Of a stretch of DNA of 64,000 nt, positions 16,883 through 32,289 are shown in pieces (position 1 is the first letter of the stretch; every line of letters begins with the position of its first letter). The stretch spans positions 62,001 to 126,000 of the forward strand of contig NZ_AP017559.1 in the NCBI RefSeq assembly GCF_002355635.1, in the 5' to 3' direction. The stretch comes from Halopenitus persicus. Lineage in GTDB: Archaea > Halobacteriota > Halobacteria > Halobacteriales > Haloferacaceae. Below the pieces are notes generated by a model. It did not search any database, was not told the origin of the DNA, and saw nothing but the letters and a program-made list of their open reading frames with translations. Both the position numbers and the translations under genes were made by a program.

Positions 16883-19045
16883 ATGCCGTTCACTATTGAC
16901 TTCTTCGACGACGGGCACGTCCTCGAGTGGGAAGCTACCGCCGACGGCGCCGTCGCGACCGAGCGCGATGACTACTCCCCACGCTTCTACGTGGCCCCTC
17001 GTGACCCTGACGCCGACCTCGATCTCACGAGACTCCAGTCGGTGTACGACCAGCACCCGGACGTCGTTGCGACCGGGACGGTTGCACGACGACCCGGTTT
17101 CCGACGTGACGAGGAGGCCGTCCTCGCCGTCGACGTCGATCACATCAACCGCGTCACGCCACTCGCCCGGCAGGCACGTCAGCTAAACGCGTATCCAGTC
17201 GGGGACCTGGCGTGCTTCAACGTCGATTTCTCGCGAGAGTTTCGCTACTGTCTCGAGGAAGACGTCGATCCGACGCCAACAAGCGAGCTGTCGACGCTCC
17301 GACTCAGCGTCCCCGTGGTCGAAACGAGCAACGACACCTATGCCGAGCTGTCAGTCGCCGGCGACACCGTCACCGGCTCGCCCACGGATATCCTGACGGC
17401 AGTCCAGGCAGCACTCGATGATCAGAATCCGGATATCCTGGTCTGCTCGACAAGCGGGATCATCCCGACCCTGTACGAGATGGCCGCGGCCGCCGGCATC
17501 GACGAGTTCACGCTGAGTCGGTGGCCGGACGTCGACTACCAGCAGCTCGCGAGCCGGTCGACGTACTCGAGCTACGGCCGCGTCGGCCACTCGCCAGCAC
17601 GGTACAACGTCCCCGGGCGGGCGATCATCGACGAGTCGAACACGTTCTTTTACGGGGAGACGAACCTCGACGGCGTCCTCGACCTCGTGTCGCGCTCGAA
17701 AAAGCCAGTCCAGGAGCTCGCCTGGGCGTCGATCGGGAACGTCCTCACCGCCATCCAGATCTGCGAGGCCCACGACCGCGGCGTGCTCGTGCCGTGGAAC
17801 TCCTGGCGCCACGAGTTTTACAAGCCGATGGGGACGCTCCACGACGCCGACCGCGGCGGCTTCATCTTCGCGCCCGAGGTCGGCCTGCACGAGAACGTCC
17901 ACGAACTCGATTTTTCGAGCCTGTATCCGAACATCATCTGTACCCGGAACATCTCACCGGACGTCATCCGGTGTGATTGCCATCGCGACCGTGACGACGT
18001 CCACAGTCTCGGATACTCGATCTGCGACGACCGCGGATACCTCGTCGACGTACTGCAACCGATCATCGACGCTCGCGACGAGATCAAGGCGGCCATTCGT
18101 CGTGAGAAGGAACGGGACGACCCCGACGAGGACCGACTGGCGGAACTCGAGGGGCGGTCGGGAGCGCTGAAGTGGATACTTGTCGCCTGTTTCGGATATC
18201 AAGGGTTCAGCAACGCGAAGTTCGGCCGAATCGAATGTCACGAGGCGATCAACGCGTTCGCTCGCGAGATTTTGTTGACGGCAAAGCAACGACTAGAAGC
18301 CGGTGGGTGGCGGGTTGTTCACGGCATCGTCGACTCCATCTGGGTGACCCCGGACCCCGACGTCGACGATAACCGCGAGGACCTCGAGACGCTCGCGACG
18401 GAGATCACCGAACGCGTCGAGATTCGGCTCGAACACGAAGCCCGCTATGACTGGGTGGCGTTCGTTCCGCAGCGCGAGAGTGATGCCGGCGCGTTGACGA
18501 AGTACTTCGGGAAAGTCGCTGGTGCCGACGAGTTCAAAGTAAGAGGTATCGAAGCGCGGCAGCGCTCGACGCCACCGTTTATCGAGAAGTTCCAGCGGGA
18601 GTGCCTCGAGCGATTTGATGCGACCCGGTCACCGAAAGCAGTCCTCAATTCGCTCCGAGACGCAATCGACCGTCTGCACGCCGGCGAGGTCCCGATCGAG
18701 GATCTCGTCGAACGAAATCGTGTCTCCAAGCCGCTGGAAGGGTACACGCAGAACACCCAGAACGTGGCGGCGCTGAAGCGGGCTCGCGACCAGGATCTCG
18801 CTATGCATCCCGGACAGGATATCGAATACGTGGTCGTCGATGACGAGAAGACCTCGCGAGAACGGGTCGTGTTGGCCCACGAAGGGGTTGAGTCGTATGA
18901 TGCGTCATACTACGAGACGCAACTCGTTCGGGCGATCGAGAGTCTTCTGTCGCCGTTGGGCTGGAATCGCTCGAAAATCCGTCGAGAGCTCGCAGAGACA
19001 CGGGTGCCGGAGTTAACGGCGTTCGCGAACACGGAGAATGATTAA
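16883..19045 (+). CDS. polB: family B DNA polymerase, PolB2-like with altered motifs
   Basis: A 720-residue type B polymerase. Motif A, DFSSLYPNII (about residue 342), is intact, and motif B is recognisable (KWILVACFGYQGFSNAKFG, about 430). Motif C, normally YGDTDS, reads HGIVDS (about 480), so the first catalytic aspartate is missing. I find no clear exonuclease DxE motif in the N-terminal half. These losses are known for the archaeal PolB2 (Dpo2) group, long thought inactive and later linked to DNA damage tolerance. Its GC is higher than much of the window. It sits alone between two copies of the TTAACCAACA palindrome, which suggests joint regulation or transfer as a unit. Confidence 0.82.
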   Translation: MPFTIDFFDDGHVLEWEATADGAVATERDDYSPRFYVAPRDPDADLDLTRLQSVYDQHPDVVATGTVARRPGFRRDEEAVLAVDVDHINRVTPLARQARQLNAYPVGDLACFNVDFSREFRYCLEEDVDPTPTSELSTLRLSVPVVETSNDTYAELSVAGDTVTGSPTDILTAVQAALDDQNPDILVCSTSGIIPTLYEMAAAAGIDEFTLSRWPDVDYQQLASRSTYSSYGRVGHSPARYNVPGRAIIDESNTFFYGETNLDGVLDLVSRSKKPVQELAWASIGNVLTAIQICEAHDRGVLVPWNSWRHEFYKPMGTLHDADRGGFIFAPEVGLHENVHELDFSSLYPNIICTRNISPDVIRCDCHRDRDDVHSLGYSICDDRGYLVDVLQPIIDARDEIKAAIRREKERDDPDEDRLAELEGRSGALKWILVACFGYQGFSNAKFGRIECHEAINAFAREILLTAKQRLEAGGWRVVHGIVDSIWVTPDPDVDDNREDLETLATEITERVEIRLEHEARYDWVAFVPQRESDAGALTKYFGKVAGADEFKVRGIEARQRSTPPFIEKFQRECLERFDATRSPKAVLNSLRDAIDRLHAGEVPIEDLVERNRVSKPLEGYTQNTQNVAALKRARDQDLAMHPGQDIEYVVVDDEKTSRERVVLAHEGVESYDASYYETQLVRAIESLLSPLGWNRSKIRRELAETRVPELTAFANTEND

Positions 19046-21393: not shown

Positions 21394-22893
21394 ATGGGAC
21401 GAGAGGGACGTGGAGCGGGATCGAATCATCCAGAAGATGATGGAGATCGTCAATCCTCCGTTGCTGATACTGAAAATTCTGAGTCAACAGGTGAGGATGT
21501 AGATTCGCCCGATACGTCACAAACGACGTTCGAGAACGACTCGGATCCCGCCGATTCGTCGCACGAAGTAGCTAACGGCGACGGTGGCGGCATTTCAATT
21601 CGTGATCGGCTACAAACAGAGTCGTCCGGTGGCGTCTTCGTGAACAAAGACCTCGTCCGGTCAGATACCATCATTGATGAGGATCGTATCGTCGGTCGTG
21701 ACGACCAGCTGGGTCGTGTCGTCGACAATCTGAAACCAGTCCTCCAGAATGAAGGCATCCCTGATATGCTCCTGAGTGGGCCGTCTGGAACCGGGAAATC
21801 GCTCATCATTCATGCAGTCTGCAAACAGATTGTCGAGCTGTGTGAATCTCAAGACAAGACATTCGGAGTTATCTCAATCAACTGCGAGGGGCCAAAGACT
21901 GCAGATCGGGCTGTTTATCGGTTAGTTAAAGCTGCTGCGGACGATCTTGGTGTCGAACCCGGTGTTCCTCAAACTGGTGTCTCAACGGACCAGAAACTTG
22001 AGCGACTGTACGAGCTGATGCGTGAGTACTACGGCGGTGTCATCTTCATTCTTGATGAAATTGATATGCTTGAGGGTCCCTATCAGGAGGCAGAGTACAA
22101 CTCCCTCATCTACCAGCTTTCACGGGCGCGAAAACTCGCCGATTTTGATGGCCCGATCTCACTCACGGCCATCACGAATTATGCCGATTTTATGAGGGAT
22201 CTCAACAGCCGCGCACAGAGCTCCTATAATCCTGATGATATTTTCTTCGACGATTACGATGCGACGCAGCTCCGTAGTATCCTCAAAAATAGACGAGATG
22301 CCTTCGAGCCAGAATCACTTGCAGATGACGTCATTCCGCTTGTTGCCGCGTTCGGGTCCCAAACGCACGGAGATGCGCGAAAAGCGATTGATCTCCTCAG
22401 ATGGGCTGGCGAATTAGCCGAGCGTCGTGGGGCTGACAGGGTTACCGAGACCGACGTCCGTGAAGCCCAAGAAAAATACACCGAAAATCGCAAACTCCGC
22501 CATATCAGCGGGACTTCGACTCAAAAGAAACTGTCCATCTACGCCGTGGCGGCGACTGCCAGCTGCGCAAGGGAACATCCTGAGTGGATCCCTGCTGGTC
22601 CTGCGTTCAAAGCGTACCAATTCATTGCTGATACGATGGACACGGAACAGTACAGTCGCGAGACGTTTGTAAATCACGTCACTGAGCAGAGTACGTACGG
22701 CGTGTTGGACTTCGAACGTCGAGGCAAAGGTCGAGGCAGAGGAGTGCATATGTATTTCTCCCTCTCCGAAGATCCGGAAACAATTATGGAGACGATTCGT
22801 GAGGATTCGCGATTCGAAGATCTAGCTCACGAAGAGGCGACTATCAGCGCGGTTGTTCGTGAACGGCTGAAGCAGTTCCGGAGCAAGAACTGA
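21394..22893 (+). CDS. cdc6: Orc1/Cdc6 replication initiator 3
   Basis: A 499-residue AAA+ initiator. The first ~85 residues are an acidic, low-complexity extension (SVADTENSESTGEDVDSPDT). The AAA+ core follows: GPSGTGKS (about 129-136), Walker B IFILDEID (about 217-224), ITNYADFM near sensor 1, and FGSQTHGDARKAIDLLRWAGE in the lid. The C-terminal winged helix starts near STQKKLSIYAVAA. It is clearly a different lineage from initiators 1 and 2. Boxes of a third family flank it on both sides. Its ATG follows a TATA-like element by ~25 bp, so the transcript may be leaderless. Confidence 0.9.
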   Translation: MGREGRGAGSNHPEDDGDRQSSVADTENSESTGEDVDSPDTSQTTFENDSDPADSSHEVANGDGGGISIRDRLQTESSGGVFVNKDLVRSDTIIDEDRIVGRDDQLGRVVDNLKPVLQNEGIPDMLLSGPSGTGKSLIIHAVCKQIVELCESQDKTFGVISINCEGPKTADRAVYRLVKAAADDLGVEPGVPQTGVSTDQKLERLYELMREYYGGVIFILDEIDMLEGPYQEAEYNSLIYQLSRARKLADFDGPISLTAITNYADFMRDLNSRAQSSYNPDDIFFDDYDATQLRSILKNRRDAFEPESLADDVIPLVAAFGSQTHGDARKAIDLLRWAGELAERRGADRVTETDVREAQEKYTENRKLRHISGTSTQKKLSIYAVAATASCAREHPEWIPAGPAFKAYQFIADTMDTEQYSRETFVNHVTEQSTYGVLDFERRGKGRGRGVHMYFSLSEDPETIMETIREDSRFEDLAHEEATISAVVRERLKQFRSKN

Positions 22894-23311: not shown

Positions 23312-23615
23312 CCGGGCTCTTATACTTAGAGCGGATTTTTTCGCCATCTCGCCACTGCCAGTAGTAATAGCGATTGCCGTCGATCTCTTTGATCGTAATC
23401 GTCGCTTTGGTAGGAACGTCGTCCGGAAGGTCATCTGGTCGCTCCTCGACTTCTTCCTGATCTGCCGACTTCTCGAGACGGGCCTCACGTTCCTTGTGCT
23501 CAGCTAGCGCTTCGGCGTATGTAGCAATGTCTCGAAGCTGCTCCGGAGTCGACTCGTTGAGCGTGTTGACGATCTCCGTCGGGAGTTTCGCCGGTGGGGT
23601 CGGGGGGTCGTAGGA
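23295..23615 (-). CDS. DUF6788-like small protein, second member
   Basis: About 106 residues from MSYDPPTPPAKL (ATG 23615). An N-terminal helix (LPTEIVNTLNESTPEQLRDI) is followed by a charged linker (LEKSADQEEVEERPDD) and a C-terminal strand module KATITIKEIDGNRYYYWQWR. It matches the architecture of the 477-824 protein but lacks its cysteine motif. The frame is open to 23645, which lies inside the palindrome, so I prefer 23615. Two decayed copies of its start region lie beside the same palindrome at 28190 and 40700. Confidence 0.6.
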   Translation of the reverse strand, partial: SYDPPTPPAKLPTEIVNTLNESTPEQLRDIATYAEALAEHKEREARLEKSADQEEVEERPDDLPDDVPTKATITIKEIDGNRYYYWQWRDGEKIRSKYKSPVNPDE

Positions 23616-23632
23616 CATCGGCTGCTCTCGTG

Positions 23633-23673
23633 TTAACCAACACAACCTGCTAATCCATAGATTTGTTGGTTAA
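23633..23673. promoter_or_regulatory. palindrome copy C, divergent promoter region
   Basis: TTAACCAACA (23633-23642) / TGTTGGTTAA (23664-23673), 31 bp apart, 18 bp upstream of the DUF6788-like start. The following ~60 bp, including CTGTAACA and a TATA box near 23721-23735, closely resemble those after copy D (28221), so the conserved unit is longer than the palindrome. Confidence 0.75.
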
Positions 23674-23829
23674 GTCGGTAATGTCGGTTGGCACTCGCTA
23701 CCTGTAACATTACCCGCAACTTCTTTATAAATAAATCCACGACACGTAGATATACACCCTCAGTAATTATACATTACGAGCTACTAAATCGCCACGAACC
23801 CACTAAACTCCACGGAACACATACGAGGG

Positions 23830-26800
23830 ATGTTTATCTTACATGCGGTCACGGACGATTGCGGGAAAATATACCTCTGGGCAGAGGATTCGACACTTCC
23901 TCCTTTGCGACCAAAGGAACAGAACTCGGCAGTAGACCCGAAAGGTGGAGAGAAGCATCCGTTTGCCGTTGATAAGCAGACTCTCAACGATCTTCTATCA
24001 TATGCGGGGTATGGAAACGCAAATACGGAGCTGACCACTCTCACAGTCTATTTACCGTCAGGCCGAGCTAATCCTCAGCCATCTCCATCAATTCGGGAAG
24101 AAGACGGACAAGAGACTACGACATCACTCACTCCGTGGCTCATTCCAGCAGTGGAAGTTGATATGAGAGATGCTCCATCGATCCTCTCGTATCTTTCGCA
24201 GTCATCTTCAACCGATGAGGAGACGAGTAGTTACGGAGAAAATCCGATCAAATCGGGACAGACGGTCAACTACTGGTCTGCTGTTTGCTCTGTAGCAGAG
24301 TCGTATGTTGAAGCCGGGCGGGTTGCACCACACCTCGCAGAAAAGGATGGATCCGTTACCGGTGTTTGGCGCGCGTTTCCCTCTAGGGAAGCGGATATTG
24401 ATCGGCTTATGGAGCTGATGGAAGCGATGCCACCGCTCGCACGGACATCCGTAGAGGTCGGATCGAATCCCACCCTCGACCGTGGATCCCCCAATGACTC
24501 AATCGGTCGTTCCTCAAGAGACGTCTTGACGCGCGCACTGGACCAGATGGTTAATGCGCTGTCGAAAGAACACTTGTCCGCGACTGAGACGGACTTGACC
24601 ACGGACGACTTGGAAGCGATCCATCAACAGTGGATCCGCACGCTTCAAAAGAACGGGGAGCCGATCGATGCTGCTCCCGAGGCGATTGATGAACTTCGAG
24701 AGCAACTCGACGAGTGGACACGACCTCCCGTGACGGGGGATGAGCAAGAAGTCAGGCTCTGTTTCCAACTGAAAGAGCCGGCAGTGGACACTGGGGCGGT
24801 GGTCTCGGAGACGAAGACCGAACCGATCGTACCTGACGGCTGGACACTCGAACTGCTCCTGCAATCCGAGAACGATCCGAGCCTCGTTGTCGAGGCAAAC
24901 GAGTTGTGGGGCTCGGATCGCTCGACGGAGAAAATACTCGCACGCCATCTCGACCAACCCACTGAGATACTGAAAAACGAACTGGAGCGCGCGTCCGCGC
25001 TATATCCGCGACTCAAGGAGGCACTCGACCAATCGAATCCGACCGCGATCGAGTTATCGAACAGCGATGCCGACGAATTCCTACAGGAATATGCAGAAGT
25101 TCTCCGGCAAGCAGGATTTGGGGTGATTCTTCCAAGCTGGTGGGGGGATCCGCCGCAACGACTTGGTGCTCGGCTGGTTGTCTCTGACGCCGCCGACGAG
25201 TTTGAGACTACCGGTAGCGGTCTGGGAATTGAACAGCTGTGTGAGTTCGACTGGGAGATCGTTCTCGGGGAGAACAGTCTCTCCAAAGAAGAGTTGGAAG
25301 AATTATCCACGCTCAAACAATCGCTCGTACACTTCCAGGGAAAGTGGGTCTCAGTACAGGACGATGACGCCAAATCGGCGAGAGACCTCCTCCATCGTGA
25401 AGAAGAACGTACTCTTGAGGAAGCGCTTCAAGCGGATACTGAGATTAGCGACGACGGGGTTAGCCTCCCGGTCGTCGAAAAGAGATTAGAGGGAACGTTC
25501 AAAAAGTTGTTCGAGCAGGATTTTGAGATATGGGTCGAGGAAATAGACACCCCGTCTGGGTTTGACGGGGAGTTGCGCTCGTATCAGAAAACGGGCCTAG
25601 GCTGGATCTCGTATCTGGAAGATCACGGCTTTGGTGGCTGTCTGGCGGACGATATGGGTCTTGGAAAGACGATTCAGATACTCGCTCGTCTCGTTCAGGA
25701 ACGTTCGGTTGATCCCTTAGTTGGCACGACACTTGTAGTGTGTCCGTTGTCTGTGGTGTACAACTGGAAAAGCGAAGCGAACGAGTTCACACCAGAACTG
25801 ACGGTACATATTCACCACGGCCAAGGTCGAATGTCGGGAGATGACCTTGCCAACGCCATAGAACACCACGACGTAATCATTACTACGTACGGGACGGCGA
25901 GAAGCGATATCGAACAACTACGAGACATTCAATTCCATAGGATCGTTCTCGATGAGGCACAGAAAATCAAAAACACGTCAGCCGGTCGTACACAAGCGAT
26001 TAGGTCGCTGTCGGGCCATCATCGGTTGGCGTTAACTGGAACTCCTGTCGAGAATCGGTTGAGTGAACTGTGGTCCATTATGGAGTTCTGTAACCCCGGA
26101 CTGCTCGGCTCCGAGAGACAGTTCAGAAACGCCTTTTCTCGGCCTATTGAGGAACGGGGGGACATCGAAAAGACGGAACAGCTCAGACAACTCATACGCC
26201 CCTTCGTGTTGCGGCGTGAGAAAACGGATGACTCGATAATCGACGACCTTCCAGAGAAATCAGAGAAAAAGGAATACTGCAGACTCACTGAAGAACAAGC
26301 AACTCTATACAAGGCAGTAGCTGATGAAATCTTTGGGCAAATTGAGCAGTCCCGGGATATCGAACGAAGGGGGCAGATTCTGAAGCTGATTGGCAATCTA
26401 AAATCGATTTGTAACCACCCACGTCAGTATCTTAACGACGATCAGCGTATCAGTGGTCGGTCGGGTAAGCTTGACGTCCTTGATGACATTGTCCAGAAGA
26501 TAGCAGCTAATGGCGAGAAGGGACTGATATTCACCCAATACACCCAGATGGCGGAGCTGCTGTTAGAACACTTACGAGGTCAAGGCTATCGCGTGTTCTA
26601 CCTCTATGGGGAGACAGCGAAGGAGGAACGGGAAGAGATGATTGACGAATTTGAGAACGCTGAGGGATCCTGTTTCTTCTTGTTATCACTGCATGCTGGT
26701 GGCACCGGGATCAATCTCACACCGGCTAACTACGTTATCCACTATGACCGGTGGTGGAATCCTGCCGTCGAAAAGCAAGCAACTGACCGAGCGTATCGGA

Positions 26801-26994
26801 TTGGGCAGGACAATAACGTACAGGTATACAAACTGATTTGTCGAGGAACGATCGAAGAATCGATTGACCAAATTATTGAGAGCAAGCGTGACTTAGCAGA
26901 ACAGGTACTGGTTGATAGCGACGAGTGGATGACTGAACTATCGGATGAAGAGCTTCGCAACCTCGTTTCGTTATCAGTAGACTCTCTAGTATGA
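23830..26994 (+). CDS. SNF2-family helicase (HepA/SWIM-associated type)
   Basis: A 1054-residue ATP-driven DNA translocase. Residues ~1-580 are the long N-terminal region of the bacterial and archaeal SWIM-associated SNF2 group. The motor follows: DDMGLGKT (about 605-612), motif II DEAQ (about 707), LTGTPVENRLSELWS, then RecA-like domain 2 with LHAGGTGINLTPANYVIHYD and QATDRAYRIGQ. No nuclease domain is visible. Such proteins remodel protein-DNA complexes and often occur with a SWIM zinc-finger partner. Here the next gene, overlapping by 4 bp, has only a SWIM-partner-like tail plus HhH repeats. Its promoter region is next to palindrome C. Confidence 0.92.
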   Translation: MFILHAVTDDCGKIYLWAEDSTLPPLRPKEQNSAVDPKGGEKHPFAVDKQTLNDLLSYAGYGNANTELTTLTVYLPSGRANPQPSPSIREEDGQETTTSLTPWLIPAVEVDMRDAPSILSYLSQSSSTDEETSSYGENPIKSGQTVNYWSAVCSVAESYVEAGRVAPHLAEKDGSVTGVWRAFPSREADIDRLMELMEAMPPLARTSVEVGSNPTLDRGSPNDSIGRSSRDVLTRALDQMVNALSKEHLSATETDLTTDDLEAIHQQWIRTLQKNGEPIDAAPEAIDELREQLDEWTRPPVTGDEQEVRLCFQLKEPAVDTGAVVSETKTEPIVPDGWTLELLLQSENDPSLVVEANELWGSDRSTEKILARHLDQPTEILKNELERASALYPRLKEALDQSNPTAIELSNSDADEFLQEYAEVLRQAGFGVILPSWWGDPPQRLGARLVVSDAADEFETTGSGLGIEQLCEFDWEIVLGENSLSKEELEELSTLKQSLVHFQGKWVSVQDDDAKSARDLLHREEERTLEEALQADTEISDDGVSLPVVEKRLEGTFKKLFEQDFEIWVEEIDTPSGFDGELRSYQKTGLGWISYLEDHGFGGCLADDMGLGKTIQILARLVQERSVDPLVGTTLVVCPLSVVYNWKSEANEFTPELTVHIHHGQGRMSGDDLANAIEHHDVIITTYGTARSDIEQLRDIQFHRIVLDEAQKIKNTSAGRTQAIRSLSGHHRLALTGTPVENRLSELWSIMEFCNPGLLGSERQFRNAFSRPIEERGDIEKTEQLRQLIRPFVLRREKTDDSIIDDLPEKSEKKEYCRLTEEQATLYKAVADEIFGQIEQSRDIERRGQILKLIGNLKSICNHPRQYLNDDQRISGRSGKLDVLDDIVQKIAANGEKGLIFTQYTQMAELLLEHLRGQGYRVFYLYGETAKEEREEMIDEFENAEGSCFFLLSLHAGGTGINLTPANYVIHYDRWWNPAVEKQATDRAYRIGQDNNVQVYKLICRGTIEESIDQIIESKRDLAEQVLVDSDEWMTELSDEELRNLVSLSVDSLV

Positions 26995-27980
26995 CCCGAT
27001 CTAATAGACATATCGTCGACAGTGAGGAGACCAATCAGGACTCACGAAAGCTGAGTGTGATGTGGTGGAGATATCGATTTTCCGCCACAAACGCATCAGT
27101 TGAGGGTGTGAATGATTCGTTCGAAGAACCTCTTGACGAATTCTGGACTGGGCTACCTGAGAAGTATGAGGTCCCTTCAGTGGATGCTGAAGAGGATGAA
27201 CAGACGAAATTAGCATCACTCGGTGCTCCACCAGAGGGATTCAGTCGGGCTTTTGAGATGGCAAATCGGCTCCACGAGAAAATCCAAGAGCCACAGAGAT
27301 ATCAGACTCAATTCACACCGGAAACGTCTATCAGCACCGTAGTGGACGAGATTCCACGTGCAGGACCGATTATCGTAACGAATCTGGAAAACGAGGGTTA
27401 CGAGACACTCGGTGATCTGGAGAGAATTACCAATAGCGAATTAATGAGCGTGAACCGAGTTGGAACGGAAACGGCAGAGCGGTTGATTGAGTTCACCCAG
27501 AATCAGATACCGAGGGATCGAGATTGGAATCGGGCAAGCGACCGATCAGCTATCTCGGACGATGTTGCACTCCACAAGATTTCGGATCAGATCCCCGGAT
27601 TCGGAGACATCAGTCGAAAGAAGATCGAAAAAGCAGGATATGAGACTGTAGGAGACGTACGTGCTGCAACGGCTAATGAACTAACTGACATTAAACAGAT
27701 TGGCGAAGGGACTATTTCGAAACTTTTGGACTACATAGAAAATCACTCAGGGAAACCTACTTCAATAGCAGATAAACAGATACCAGACGATACTCCGATA
27801 GAAGATTTCGCGGCAGATGTTCCGAGAGTGGGACGGGTGTTGATCTCTAAATTGACTCAGGAAGGGTATGAGACGGTAGGTGATCTTCGTACTGCGACCA
27901 TTAAGGACCTGACCAACGTCGAGAATATCGGTGAAAAGAAGGCAGAATCTCTTTTGGAACACGCTAATTTGAGGGGGTAG
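26991..27980 (+). CDS. triple helix-hairpin-helix protein with SWIM-partner-like N-terminus
   Basis: A 329-residue protein translationally coupled to the SNF2 gene (ATGA overlap). Residues ~111-165, 193-248 and 270-326 are three related HhH units, each with a pattern like GYETVGDLRTAT...L..V..IG...A..LL, and should bind DNA backbone non-specifically. Residues ~40-95 (EPLDEFWTGLPEKYE...LASLGAPPEGF) resemble the segment that follows the zinc finger in SWIM proteins found beside SNF2 helicases. The CxC...CxH finger itself is absent. It probably acts as the DNA-binding partner of the helicase. Confidence 0.75.
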   Translation: MTRSNRHIVDSEETNQDSRKLSVMWWRYRFSATNASVEGVNDSFEEPLDEFWTGLPEKYEVPSVDAEEDEQTKLASLGAPPEGFSRAFEMANRLHEKIQEPQRYQTQFTPETSISTVVDEIPRAGPIIVTNLENEGYETLGDLERITNSELMSVNRVGTETAERLIEFTQNQIPRDRDWNRASDRSAISDDVALHKISDQIPGFGDISRKKIEKAGYETVGDVRAATANELTDIKQIGEGTISKLLDYIENHSGKPTSIADKQIPDDTPIEDFAADVPRVGRVLISKLTQEGYETVGDLRTATIKDLTNVENIGEKKAESLLEHANLRG

Positions 27981-28175: not shown

Positions 28176-28219
28176 ACTCACAGTATAGAGGGGGTCCGTA
28201 GGACATCGACTTCTCCCGT
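28176..28219 (-). pseudogene. remnant of a DUF6788-like gene start
   Basis: On the minus strand, ATGTCCTACGGACCC (MSYGP) lies at the same distance from palindrome D as the start of the 23295-23615 gene from palindrome C. The rest of the gene is gone. Confidence 0.4.
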
Positions 28220-28220
28220 G

Positions 28221-28261
28221 TTAACCAACACTACCCACGAAACAATAGTTTTGTTGGTTAA
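28221..28261. promoter_or_regulatory. palindrome copy D
   Basis: TTAACCAACA (28221-28230) / TGTTGGTTAA (28252-28261), 31 bp apart. It is followed by CTGTAACA and a TATA box (about 28312-28325) that fits leaderless transcription of the regulator from its GTG at 28345. Confidence 0.75.
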
Positions 28262-28344
28262 GACGATGGTGGCAGTTCTCGCGACCGCTGTCTGTAACAC
28301 TACTCGAAACTTTTTTATATAGTAGTTTCGTACTATGTTACATC

Positions 28345-29268
28345 GTGCTCCGGCGCATCGAACTCGAGGCCCTCGCCATCGTCGACCGCGGCGACACGAT
28401 CTCCGATCTCGCAACGAAGCTCGACCACAGCGAGAGCTACCTCTCCCGTGCCGTCGGCGACCTCGTCGAGAAGGGGCTCGTCTACACGGAACGCGACGGC
28501 CGCCGAAAACGAGTCGTTCCGTCGGATGCTCGCGCCGTCGAACTCTATCAGGACCTCGTCCGCCAGCACTCCCACATCGACTTCCCCGAGCTGCTGACCG
28601 GCAAGGCACTCGAGGTGCTGTACTACCTCGACCACCCGCGGACCGTCTCCGAAATCGCCGACCGGAGTGACAACTATCGCAACACGGTCAACCGCGCCCT
28701 CAAGCGGTTTCGCGACCGGGGTCTCGTCAGGACGGACGACGGCTGCTATGACTTCAACGCCGACTTCGACCGCCTTCACGAGTTCGCACGTGAACTCGCA
28801 CACCATCTGCATCGCCAACGCCTCGAAGCCGTCGCCCCGAAGGGCACGATTCTCTGGGAGGACTACGACGACTTCCTTGCCCAGGCCGAGACGGAGATCG
28901 ATGCGGAGGGGTTCTACGAAACGGGTCTCGCTCGATTCACAGCCTTCGACCTCCAGTTCCTGCTCACGGGCCACCGCTACTACTTCTACTCCGAGGGACT
29001 CGACGCAATCTCGCCGGCGAAACTCTGCTGTCACACCCTCTTGATCGACGACGGCAGCCGCTACCGCTCGTACTGTCTCCTCCTGCTCAGCCACGTCGAT
29101 GTCGACGAAGAGGTTCTCCGAGAGCAGGCGGTGAAGTATGGCCTCGAAGACGAAATCGACGCCTTGCTCCGCTACCTCGAGACGCAGGGGGAGGTCGACG
29201 ATGATCGGCTCCGGGAGTGGGACGAGTTCCAGAAGCTGGCGGCTGACTACGGGGTGCGACTATCCTGA
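28345..29268 (+). CDS. winged-helix regulator with large C-terminal domain
   Basis: A 307-residue protein. Residues ~1-65 are a winged helix (TISDLATKLDHSESYLSRAV, GLVYTERDGRRKRVVP), and a second winged-helix-like unit follows (ALEVLYYLDHPRTVSEIADR). The remaining ~170 residues (FTAFDLQFLLTGHRYYFYSE...) are not a family I can name; they recall antitoxin-type regulators such as AbiEi only loosely. I use the GTG at 28345 because a TATA box lies ~25 bp upstream. A broken partial duplicate lies at 32506-32645. The PIN/AbrB pair on the opposite strand follows directly. Confidence 0.7.
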   Translation: MLRRIELEALAIVDRGDTISDLATKLDHSESYLSRAVGDLVEKGLVYTERDGRRKRVVPSDARAVELYQDLVRQHSHIDFPELLTGKALEVLYYLDHPRTVSEIADRSDNYRNTVNRALKRFRDRGLVRTDDGCYDFNADFDRLHEFARELAHHLHRQRLEAVAPKGTILWEDYDDFLAQAETEIDAEGFYETGLARFTAFDLQFLLTGHRYYFYSEGLDAISPAKLCCHTLLIDDGSRYRSYCLLLLSHVDVDEEVLREQAVKYGLEDEIDALLRYLETQGEVDDDRLREWDEFQKLAADYGVRLS

Positions 29269-29305: not shown

Positions 29306-29740
29306 TTAGTTCGGATCGTAGGGATCCGTTGCTGTATCGAGTCGATAGACATCCTCGACAGCGTCAAAATCGTCGTCAAACGCATACAGGTACCCGAGCC
29401 CCTCGGTTTGCATATACGCGACAATGCAGGCATCGACGAAGGAGAGGGGTTCGTGTTGCCGAAAGAGGGCCTTCCCCGTCGCGAGAGCGTCGGTGGTGAG
29501 TGAGTCAATGTGGAAGCGGGCGTTTTCTTCGATTCGATCGAGGAGATCGACGGCTGCGTCGTGGCCGGCGTGGGTCGTGAGGCCGTTGAGTGTTTCCGCG
29601 AGAACGTAGTCGAGGACGACCGCCTCCGGGAGCGTTCCATTGTCGATGCCTTGGAGTATGGGAAGCGCGGCATCGTGAGATCCATCCTGCCGGTATGCGG
29701 CGGCAAAAAGGACTGTCGTATCGATGAGTGCACGTGGCAT
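29306..29740 (-). CDS. PIN-domain toxin (VapC-like)
   Basis: A 144-residue PIN ribonuclease. Acidic residues are in ALIDTTVLF (residue ~6), the ETLNGL glutamate and LSFVDACIVAYM, ending with YLYAFDDDFD. It starts with ATG directly after the TAA of the AbrB-type gene, so the two are one operon. The toxin would cut RNA when the unstable antitoxin is lost. Confidence 0.8.
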   Translation of the reverse strand: MPRALIDTTVLFAAAYRQDGSHDAALPILQGIDNGTLPEAVVLDYVLAETLNGLTTHAGHDAAVDLLDRIEENARFHIDSLTTDALATGKALFRQHEPLSFVDACIVAYMQTEGLGYLYAFDDDFDAVEDVYRLDTATDPYDPN

Positions 29741-29992
29741 TTACTCGACGTCGACGCCCCAGGCGTCGTGGTCGCTCGTCACATCGGTCGGCTCTTCACC
29801 AGCGTAGCCGTCGAAGTCGGCGAACGTGCCTGTTTGCTGTTGGATAACTTGGACCCGGATACTCCCGTCATCTTCGAGATGCCAGCGGAGCTGATCACCG
29901 TCGTCGATATCGAGTTCACGTCGAATCCGGGCAGGAATGTTTGCTTGGTTTCCCGACACCTTGCTTTCGGCGTCGATTCTGTCGCTGCTCAT
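29741..29992 (-). CDS. AbrB-family antitoxin
   Basis: An 83-residue protein with the swapped-hairpin AbrB/SpoVT fold signature SKVSGNQANIPARIRRELDI followed by DGDQLRWHLEDDGSIRVQVI, and an acidic tail that would bind the toxin. I start at 29992 (MSSDRIDAESK), because the upstream extension to 30040 is not coding-like. It neutralises the PIN protein and probably represses the operon. Confidence 0.78.
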   Translation of the reverse strand: MSSDRIDAESKVSGNQANIPARIRRELDIDDGDQLRWHLEDDGSIRVQVIQQQTGTFADFDGYAGEEPTDVTSDHDAWGVDVE

Positions 29993-30079
29993 ATCACCCG
30001 GTAGGTAACCCGCCGTGAAAAATCTAGTGTGCTGCCACACTACTTAGTGCTACAAGAGAAATATTCCAGAAGAGGACGT

Positions 30080-30290
30080 GAATCTATTCTAAGATGTGGG
30101 GAGGCGGCCGTCTGGTCGGGAACGCGGCCTCGTTTGATCTCGTGGTCGACGCGGCGCAGATGTTTGCAGCCGCCTTCGGGTGAGCGTTGCTGCCAGTCGG
30201 GACAGGTACACGATGAGTTCCTCTGCCCTCCGACTTATTCAGTGGCATAGCCGTGACGCGCCACGCCGTGCTCATCGTATCGTCCATTCA
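30080..30290 (-). pseudogene. SWIM zinc-finger gene remnant
   Basis: On the minus strand, with a stop and a frame change, one reads NGRYDEHGVARHGYATE, then SSCTCPDWQQRSPEGGCKHL, RR. This is the CxCPxW...GCKH core of the small SWIM zinc-finger proteins common on haloarchaeal plasmids. A stop codon before the motif and lost termini make it a pseudogene. It is notable because a SWIM partner is missing beside the SNF2 gene. Confidence 0.55.
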
Positions 30291-30390: not shown

Positions 30391-32289
30391 ATGCCGGTCT
30401 TCCACGAGTATTCTGATTCGTATCATAAATCGGGCTACTACATCAACGTTAATTGGAGCGCCCCCCATCCATATCCACTCCAAACACCAGCGCTAACCGA
30501 ACAGATCTACAAGTCACTCGGCTTCCAGCCAGGTGACCGCGTTCCGAATGAGCTCACATCACGCCTTTTTAACGCCGGACTCCACTGGACCGAGGGGAAT
30601 GGCACTGGTGACCCTGCAAAACAAACTGGTCTCCACCCAATCGATGACACCGATATCCCGGACCTCAACTCAGAAAGTTTAGACCGTGTCTATTCCATCC
30701 TGGACGAAGCCGCTGGCCACGCGGAGATCGACGACTTCAACCCTAGCGCTGTCGACGACCTGAAATCCGAGCTCAACTCCCTCCTGCCCAATACGAACCA
30801 CGGGCCAGATCCCCTCCCTAAACGAACGGTAACAGCGCTCGGAGACCTCTTCGATGAACAATCAGTCGACCGTGAGCGAGCAGAACAACTTCGCGCCGAC
30901 TGTAGTCACCCAGCTACGTTCGATTCCGATGTCTACGAATTCGTTCGCAACCACCCAATCACACCACGATCCTTCGAAGTCAACGACCACGGCTCTCCCT
31001 CCTTCCAATTCAGTACAGCCGGCGTTACCTGGAAGCTCGCAGACTGCCGTCCGGATTCACTGGATTTCGACTGGCCAGTGACCATCGCTCCAGGAACAGA
31101 CCACGAATTCGGCCTTCGAATCACGACTGGCGAACTCCTACGCGTCGTTCATAACAACGAGCAGCTCTCGACGCAGCAAGCGATTGATCTGCTTTCTGTT
31201 CTACCCTGTCTGCTCTGGACACTCCACCTTGTCGATAGTTACTCACTCTCGAATCGGTGGACAATTACTAACGTCAAAACAGAAATTCCGGAACCGCAAC
31301 GAGAGTGGCTAGCTGGCCAAACGCAGGCCGTCCTAACGGCTCTCGGCCAAGAACCAAGACTGACTGAAGGAATTATCCTTGATCTGCCAGATCAATATCT
31401 CGGTCGAATCAGAACCCCCGATAAGAGCACCGTCTGTATGGCGGTTCACGCACTCCCCGATGGCGCAGAGGTTGGCGATATGGTCTCATTCGACGTGACC
31501 CACCGCTACGACACCTATTACGCCACCAACATCGTGCTCTCTGAGAAATCCCCAAACACCGGACGAGAAATCGAAATTTCCATAGCTGACCACACACACT
31601 CATTCCGCCTGCCGTCATCAACTACACCAGAGCCAAAACGAAAACTCGCCACCACACTTGCAACAGTACTTGATACCGTTGGCCCAACAGCGGGACTCAA
31701 ACCCGACGTTTTCCAGAAATTCATCACAGAAATCGAGATCAACGACCCAGACATTCGCCACCAACTCATCCAGTCTCTCCTCGCAGAAACCCCACTTGAC
31801 CCACAGACGTTCCCCGAACTGGTTGCAAACCTCAATGATCACCATCGCCTGCCAAATATGCCGCTCTCGTTCCACATCCTTCCTCTTGCCGCCTGCACAG
31901 CCGTCTTCTACGATGCTGTCGACACACAAGCCGTCCTCAACGAGTGCGACAACCAAGGCGACACGACCATTCTCTACCACCGCGACGGGAACGCGCTCCT
32001 TGTTGGAAACGAACACCTCTGGCACGGCATCGGGAACGCCCTCCAAACCATCCCAGACCCCCTCAAAACAGCCATTGGAGCCGAATCCCTCCATCACGCA
32101 CGATTCGTCCCTCGAGCAATCGCCGCGCTCAGCGAACAACAATTCTACCGAACTATCTCTCAACCATTCGTCCGAGACGTCCTGCAAGCCGGTCTCCAAA
32201 AAACCGGGCTAAACGTACTCTATCTCCCCGACACCAAACCCGCGAAATCAAGCGATATTCTAGACACCACCGACCAGAGCCTTCTTTAA
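30391..32289 (+). CDS. large protein of unknown function (632 residues)
   Basis: No family recognised. It has no signal peptide or membrane helix, so it is probably cytoplasmic. Composition is less GC-rich at third positions than flanking haloarchaeal genes, with frequent CCA and ACA codons, suggesting transfer from a different background. A segment around residues 347-385 (TVCMAVHALPDGAEVGDMVS followed by FDVTHRYDTYYATNIVL) resembles a TRAM or OB-like RNA-binding strand pattern. The N-terminus mixes aromatic residues (HEYSDSYHKSGYYINVNW). It stands alone after a TATA-containing gap (30300-30390) among toxin-antitoxin and SWIM remnants. A defence or RNA-related role is only a guess. Confidence 0.75.
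   Translation: MPVFHEYSDSYHKSGYYINVNWSAPHPYPLQTPALTEQIYKSLGFQPGDRVPNELTSRLFNAGLHWTEGNGTGDPAKQTGLHPIDDTDIPDLNSESLDRVYSILDEAAGHAEIDDFNPSAVDDLKSELNSLLPNTNHGPDPLPKRTVTALGDLFDEQSVDRERAEQLRADCSHPATFDSDVYEFVRNHPITPRSFEVNDHGSPSFQFSTAGVTWKLADCRPDSLDFDWPVTIAPGTDHEFGLRITTGELLRVVHNNEQLSTQQAIDLLSVLPCLLWTLHLVDSYSLSNRWTITNVKTEIPEPQREWLAGQTQAVLTALGQEPRLTEGIILDLPDQYLGRIRTPDKSTVCMAVHALPDGAEVGDMVSFDVTHRYDTYYATNIVLSEKSPNTGREIEISIADHTHSFRLPSSTTPEPKRKLATTLATVLDTVGPTAGLKPDVFQKFITEIEINDPDIRHQLIQSLLAETPLDPQTFPELVANLNDHHRLPNMPLSFHILPLAACTAVFYDAVDTQAVLNECDNQGDTTILYHRDGNALLVGNEHLWHGIGNALQTIPDPLKTAIGAESLHHARFVPRAIAALSEQQFYRTISQPFVRDVLQAGLQKTGLNVLYLPDTKPAKSSDILDTTDQSLL

Follow-up and report, generated by a model that had tools for sequence, protein, structure and literature searches.

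The closest described systems are two-gene loci, Bacillus YwqA/YwqB, the cyanobacterial sll1366 family and Streptomyces SCO1167/SCO6262, which we take to be pairs of a DUF3670-type SNF2 protein and a SWIM zinc-finger protein. SNF2-SWIM pairs are widespread in bacteria and archaea; little was found on their function, and the finger is the presumed working part. They share with the locus described here the SNF2 family, the domain layout and a partner gene directly downstream, often with a 4-bp overlap. The partner differs: by sequence, the head and tail of SWIM partners are kept, the finger and core are gone, and three (HhH)2 units follow the tail. The closest solved relative of the motor is SsoRad54 (1z63, 1z6a), named a SWIM domain-associated SWI2/SNF2 ATPase in PMC5512222; its solved chain of 500 residues is motor only and represents neither the DUF3670 front part nor the HhH partner. 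In a literature search that covered few subscription papers, no publication was found on DUF3670, on SNF2-HhH pairs in haloarchaea or on tail-only partners.

The 64,000-nucleotide stretch of Halopenitus persicus DNA analyzed here (the window) comes from a haloarchaeal genome of two contigs and lies on the second of them, and the locus is on a plasmid. The pair comprises the following features.

23830..26994, + strand, SNF2/DUF3670 ATPase, 1054 aa (Pfam; ORF intact)
25036-25434, + strand, DUF3670 of the SNF2 gene (Pfam)
25582-26424, + strand, SNF2_N of the SNF2 gene (Pfam)
26467-26805, + strand, Helicase_C of the SNF2 gene (Pfam)
26991..27980, + strand, 329-aa HhH partner protein, its gene overlapping the SNF2 gene by ATGA (ORF, Pfam, homologues)
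27063..27080, + strand, WWxxRF head motif, residues 25-30, common to SWIM partners (motif scan)
27120..27290, + strand, SWIM-partner tail module FW...LGxPP, residues 44-100 (alignment, profiles)
27330..27506, + strand, (HhH)2 unit 1 (Pfam HHH_5; helices in the predicted model)
27564..27746, + strand, (HhH)2 unit 2 (Pfam HHH_5; helices in the predicted model)
27792..27968, + strand, (HhH)2 unit 3, the best conserved (Pfam HHH_5; 69-73% identity between genomes)

The SNF2 ORF contains PF12419 DUF3670 (118.6 bits), PF00176 SNF2_N (236.9 bits) and PF00271 Helicase_C (88.9 bits), all above their curated cut-offs, which assigns it to the SWIM-associated DUF3670 type. The nearest NCBIfam entry, the SCO1167/SCO6262 family helicase NF058637, scored 736 bits over residues 143-1048 against a curated cut-off of 1200 bits, and by this measure the protein is a relative of that family and not a member. 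NCBIfam scores for Zorya ZorD (282 of 1500 bits), Dpd DpdE (47 of 500) and DISARM DrmD (89 of 950) place it outside these families as well, with matches covering mainly the shared motor. Its nearest solved sequence is SsoRad54 (1z63). No frameshift was found in either gene, no nuclease domain in either protein in the Pfam search, no match to the SNF2 front part in the viral contigs searched and no match in the Rfam search.

The partner gene carries three HHH_5 stretches (E 3e-21, 76 bits, above the Pfam cut-off), each corresponding to a double-hairpin (HhH)2 unit of the RadA kind, about six hairpins in total. A SWIM zinc finger was found neither as a Pfam match nor as a CxCx(n)CxH motif in the protein. 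The initial annotation, which had described two genes overlapping by ATGA and a partner with three HhH units in place of the finger, was borne out on these points, both ORFs being intact. The units match the RadA profile at 2e-18 and resemble the N-terminal (HhH)2 domain of RadA/Rad51 in profile and weakly in fold; unlike RadA/Rad51, the protein has three copies, no recombinase and a SWIM-partner tail joined to them. The nearest solved sequences are NusA repeats. DNA binding by the units is putative. The AlphaFold model of the protein was poor, worst at residues 1-106 (pLDDT 29-47), and fold claims based on it were dropped for that reason.

The whole-length SWIM-partner HMM gave E-values of 0.012-0.05 in a three-sequence search, which is too weak alone, and the tails were therefore compared separately. 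The tail that follows the finger in the SWIM proteins of two Halococcus species aligns with residues 44-100 of the HhH protein. Smith-Waterman comparison of residues 1-112 with these two tails gave scores of 44-67 against shuffled means near 27, a level reached by 0-12 of 2000 shuffles, and the profile-profile score was 25.6, where 60 shuffles of the columns gave at most 16.1. Among 259 haloarchaeal ORFs searched with tail profiles, the four HhH proteins known to us (see below) came immediately after the two true SWIM proteins, and did so too when the profile was built from actinobacteria only. The HMM E-values themselves were weak (0.002-0.3) and the pairwise likeness spans only about 60 residues, so the tail likeness is carried by rank, shuffles and context. 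A scan of the ORFs of all loci (678,262 aa) located the head motif WWxxRF in 25 SWIM ORFs and 10 HhH-partner entries, with no occurrence outside these two classes.

The HhH protein thus has the WWxxRF head, the FW...LGxPP tail and a gene adjoining the SNF2 gene, as SWIM partners do. With head and tail present and the finger missing, both SWIM-partner ends are, judging from these alignments, kept and the finger-bearing core removed. The resemblance to the post-finger part, claimed at the outset, is upheld by the shuffles, the profile-profile comparison and the ranking; the wording that only a tail was retained is incomplete, since the head is kept too. Alternatively, an unrelated HhH gene could have landed next to the SNF2 gene and taken over its translational coupling, the FW/LGxPP and WWxxRF likeness being convergent or due to chance. 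The short span and weak HMM E-values would allow this, but we regard it as very unlikely given that both ends occur in the right order, that the head motif is confined to these two classes, that the four proteins rank behind true SWIM proteins with the actinobacterial profile, and that 0-12 of 2000 Smith-Waterman shuffles and none of 60 profile-profile shuffles reached the observed scores.

The SNF2 family is rare in haloarchaea: the class sample of 391 genomes yielded 4 that have it, and the full family sample added one. The search for SNF2 genes followed by HhH genes, as proposed in the initial annotation, recovered the pairing in four haloarchaeal genomes: the window organism, Halonotius aquaticus F13-13 (G163), Natronorubrum sulfidifaciens JCM 14089 (G217) and G652, a member of the same family as the window organism. 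The HhH-protein homologues are 58-59% identical, with a further one in the G652 locus L162. Contig C4 of G652 (201 kb) contains two identical 20-kb stretches, L162 and L163, 104 kb apart, and probably represents a plasmid of some 104 kb that entered the assembly almost two times over. Other haloarchaeal HhH matches (L005-L011, E 1e-13 to 1e-8) cover the HhH region only; no SNF2 neighbour was found in the short stretches around the HhH match in L005 and L010. A Halorubrum plasmid match was set aside as an annotated restriction endonuclease, and the peptide pattern of the HhH protein had no match in the genome contigs or viral contigs searched.

Halococcus thailandensis and a plasmid of H. dombrowskii encode an SNF2 gene with an ordinary SWIM partner. 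These are the nearest haloarchaeal SNF2 genes to the HhH-paired ones; in H. dombrowskii the SWIM gene overlaps the SNF2 gene by 4 bp, as the HhH gene of the window does, and in H. thailandensis the SWIM locus is split by a transposase-like gene. Among the other Halobacteriota, 24 loci were readable, and in 21 of them the SWIM gene adjoins the SNF2 gene. In the SNF2 tree, which took in three of the four HhH pairs, these form one clade (SH-aLRT 100) beside the two Halococcus SWIM loci; SWIM is the prevailing state and the HhH state needs one change. An SNF2-type SWIM partner was not found elsewhere in the window genome (G000), Halonotius or G652, and the matches of the SWIM-partner profile in Natronorubrum are partial and lie in other proteins. 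The usual pairing of this SNF2 type with a SWIM protein, put forward in the initial annotation, holds, and the replacement of the DNA-binding module proposed there is well supported: nearest relatives have SWIM, the ends are kept and these three genomes have no SWIM partner elsewhere. Three genomes of one genus (L051, L054, L069) have a DUF3670 SNF2 gene without a SWIM neighbour, followed by a phosphoesterase-like gene.

A decayed SWIM gene had also been reported downstream of the pair, at the following position.

About 30118..30285, - strand, remnant of a stand-alone haloarchaeal SWIM gene (tblastn of the intact L162 copy, E 9e-17; the match contains a stop)

The remnant is present, with the motif CTCPDW...GGCKH and its reading broken by a stop, but it was rejected as the displaced SNF2 partner. 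It belongs to another haloarchaeal SWIM family, its match to the SWIM profile of SNF2 partners being confined to the finger, and its intact homologue (L162 13077-13895, minus strand) lies downstream of the HhH pair in that genome.

In actinobacteria, the SWIM gene was adjacent in 44 of 66 usable SNF2 loci. Each of the remaining 22 carries, right where the SNF2 gene stops, a small ORF that corresponds to the SWIM-partner tail alone (61-125 residues, including L131, L102 and L138), an observation new to this analysis. The hosts include Kitasatospora, Streptomyces, Streptosporangium, Planobispora and Acrocarpospora. Search E-values ranged from 3e-24 to 0.06, with 19 of the 22 at 0.0014 or better, and 12 of the 22 overlap the SNF2 gene by 4 bp. 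'Hypothetical' partners on Streptomyces plasmids were rejected as tail-only because they contain SWIM-like Cys/His motifs. On the SNF2 tree the tail-only state requires at least four changes, and thus at least four independent losses. The predicted actinobacterial SWIM partner has an ordered core with scores mostly above 90 and a tail at 42-74 with a final helix, consistent with the tail being a separate element in the model.

The tail-only and HhH forms could be decaying remnants of SWIM partners, as the shortness of the tail-only ORFs and the recurrence of the losses might indicate. Against this, the tail-only form persists across a clade of 19 rows in the SNF2 tree, its start position is kept and third codon positions change most. 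dN/dS was well under 1 in the HhH gene as well: when codons were compared among the copies from the window, from Halonotius and from Natronorubrum, the pairs unsaturated at synonymous sites gave 0.26-0.31 for HhH and about 0.12 for the two corresponding SNF2 pairs. We consider such decay highly improbable.

Four points are demonstrated at the sequence level: the two genes are paired, the partner has kept its ends, one module has been exchanged for another, and in other genomes the tail survives by itself. From these comparisons we infer that it is the tail that links the partner protein to the SNF2 motor, the DNA-reading module being exchangeable or dispensable. The swap of finger for HhH units and the repeated reduction to the tail alone suggest that the tail is what the motor requires, and the tiny tail-only proteins of Streptomyces and relatives gain a predicted partner. 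More generally, with slightly better than even confidence, the constant subunit of SWIM-associated SNF2 machines would be a short docking element, FW...LGxPP, that occurs fused to a SWIM finger, fused to HhH units or by itself as a micro-subunit; the SWIM proteins of these operons would then be adaptors with interchangeable DNA readers, and zinc-finger proteins only in second place.

For the window pair we favour, as reasonably probable in its entirety, a DNA-remodelling machine of two subunits, encoded by a mobile cassette of two genes. The large subunit would be a translocase of the SNF2 type, moving on double-stranded DNA and preceded by a DUF3670 part. The small one would descend from a SWIM zinc-finger partner by removal of the finger core and addition of three (HhH)2 units behind head and tail. 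Its tail would dock on the SNF2 protein, the HhH array would hold DNA independently of sequence, and ATP-driven translocation would then move or strip proteins on plasmid or invading DNA. A point against this reading is that HhH repeats can also bind proteins, as the nearest solved sequences, from NusA, illustrate.

The surroundings of the pair bear on its mobility and include the following features.

21394..22893, + strand, orc1/cdc6 replication initiator, upstream of the pair (TIGR02928)
23603..23729, strand not assigned, left direct repeat flanking the cassette (130-bp repeat, 77.7% identical to the right copy)
28190..28319, strand not assigned, right direct repeat flanking the cassette (130-bp repeat)

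Halonotius L152 matches both repeat copies at 2265-2399 with no cassette between; there, a single repeat copy is all that separates the initiator-side ORF from the downstream regulator gene, and by this alignment the site is an empty one. DNA likeness of the window to Natronorubrum (23773-27972) and to Halonotius (23779-27968) is bounded by the two genes at about 76% identity. Given the flanking 130-bp repeats, the empty site in Halonotius and the defence island in Natronorubrum, the SNF2-HhH pair looks like a mobile cassette. The HVO_2833-type regulator gene (window 28345-29268), 82% identical in DNA to Halonotius L152, marks the right edge of the insertion. The repeats 23603-23729 and 28190-28319 contain the inverted repeats GTTAACCAACA ... 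TGTTGGTTAA, adjoining the orc1/cdc6 gene, and these are possibly origin-binding sites of the replicon.

The neighbourhoods suggest a mobile DNA-handling module for which defence and plasmid upkeep are both possible, and either use would be compatible with the remodelling machine favoured above. The pair might serve as an anti-phage or anti-plasmid module of an SNF2 helicase and a DNA-sensing partner, sometimes with a methylase. In Natronorubrum it begins 40 bp after a DUF1156/HmaB-like methylase gene on the same strand, in an island (L018 4600-20000, L150 1-6000) that also holds a DUF499 ATPase, GmrSD and a McrB/McrC-like pair; an HNH endonuclease gene closely precedes the Halonotius pair, with UvrD/PD-DEXK genes nearby. 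Sporadic distribution and mobility fit the same use. On the other side, the neighbours in the window and L162 are replication genes and not defence genes, neither protein has a nuclease domain, and the PADLOC matches of the SNF2 protein reflect the shared motor. Defence is a serious candidate that we place somewhat below even. Of the described defence systems, Hma (HmaA helicase, HmaB methylase, HmaC ATPase) is only partly similar to the Natronorubrum locus, through the HmaB-like/DUF1156 methylase before the SNF2 gene and the DUF499 gene near it. The window SNF2 protein matches HmaA weakly and over the motor only (7.6e-19, PADLOC), and no methylase or DUF499 neighbour was found among the window genes scanned, so that an HmaA-HmaB-HmaC operon is missing there.

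The second use, in which the pair, close to the orc1/cdc6 origin region, would aid the replicon in its replication, segregation or copy control, has the initiator directly upstream in the window and, from reading the translation, an orc1/cdc6-like gene likewise preceding the pair in L162. A 5-kb block with the pair and a PolB gene is common to both loci, and the cassette sits between repeat copies adjoining the initiator. Against it stand the Natronorubrum pair in its defence island and the Halonotius contig with the same initiator region and no cassette; we rate this use as less likely than not. The family B DNA polymerase gene (window 16883-19045) is 85% identical in DNA to its counterpart next to the L162 pair and is part of the plasmid core shared by the two. 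Further right in the window, a 632-residue ORF (30391-32289) stayed below the cut-off for every Pfam family and was matched by nothing in NCBIfam or PADLOC, and two adjacent small genes (29306-30040, minus strand) resemble, from their translations only, a PIN toxin and an AbrB-type antitoxin.
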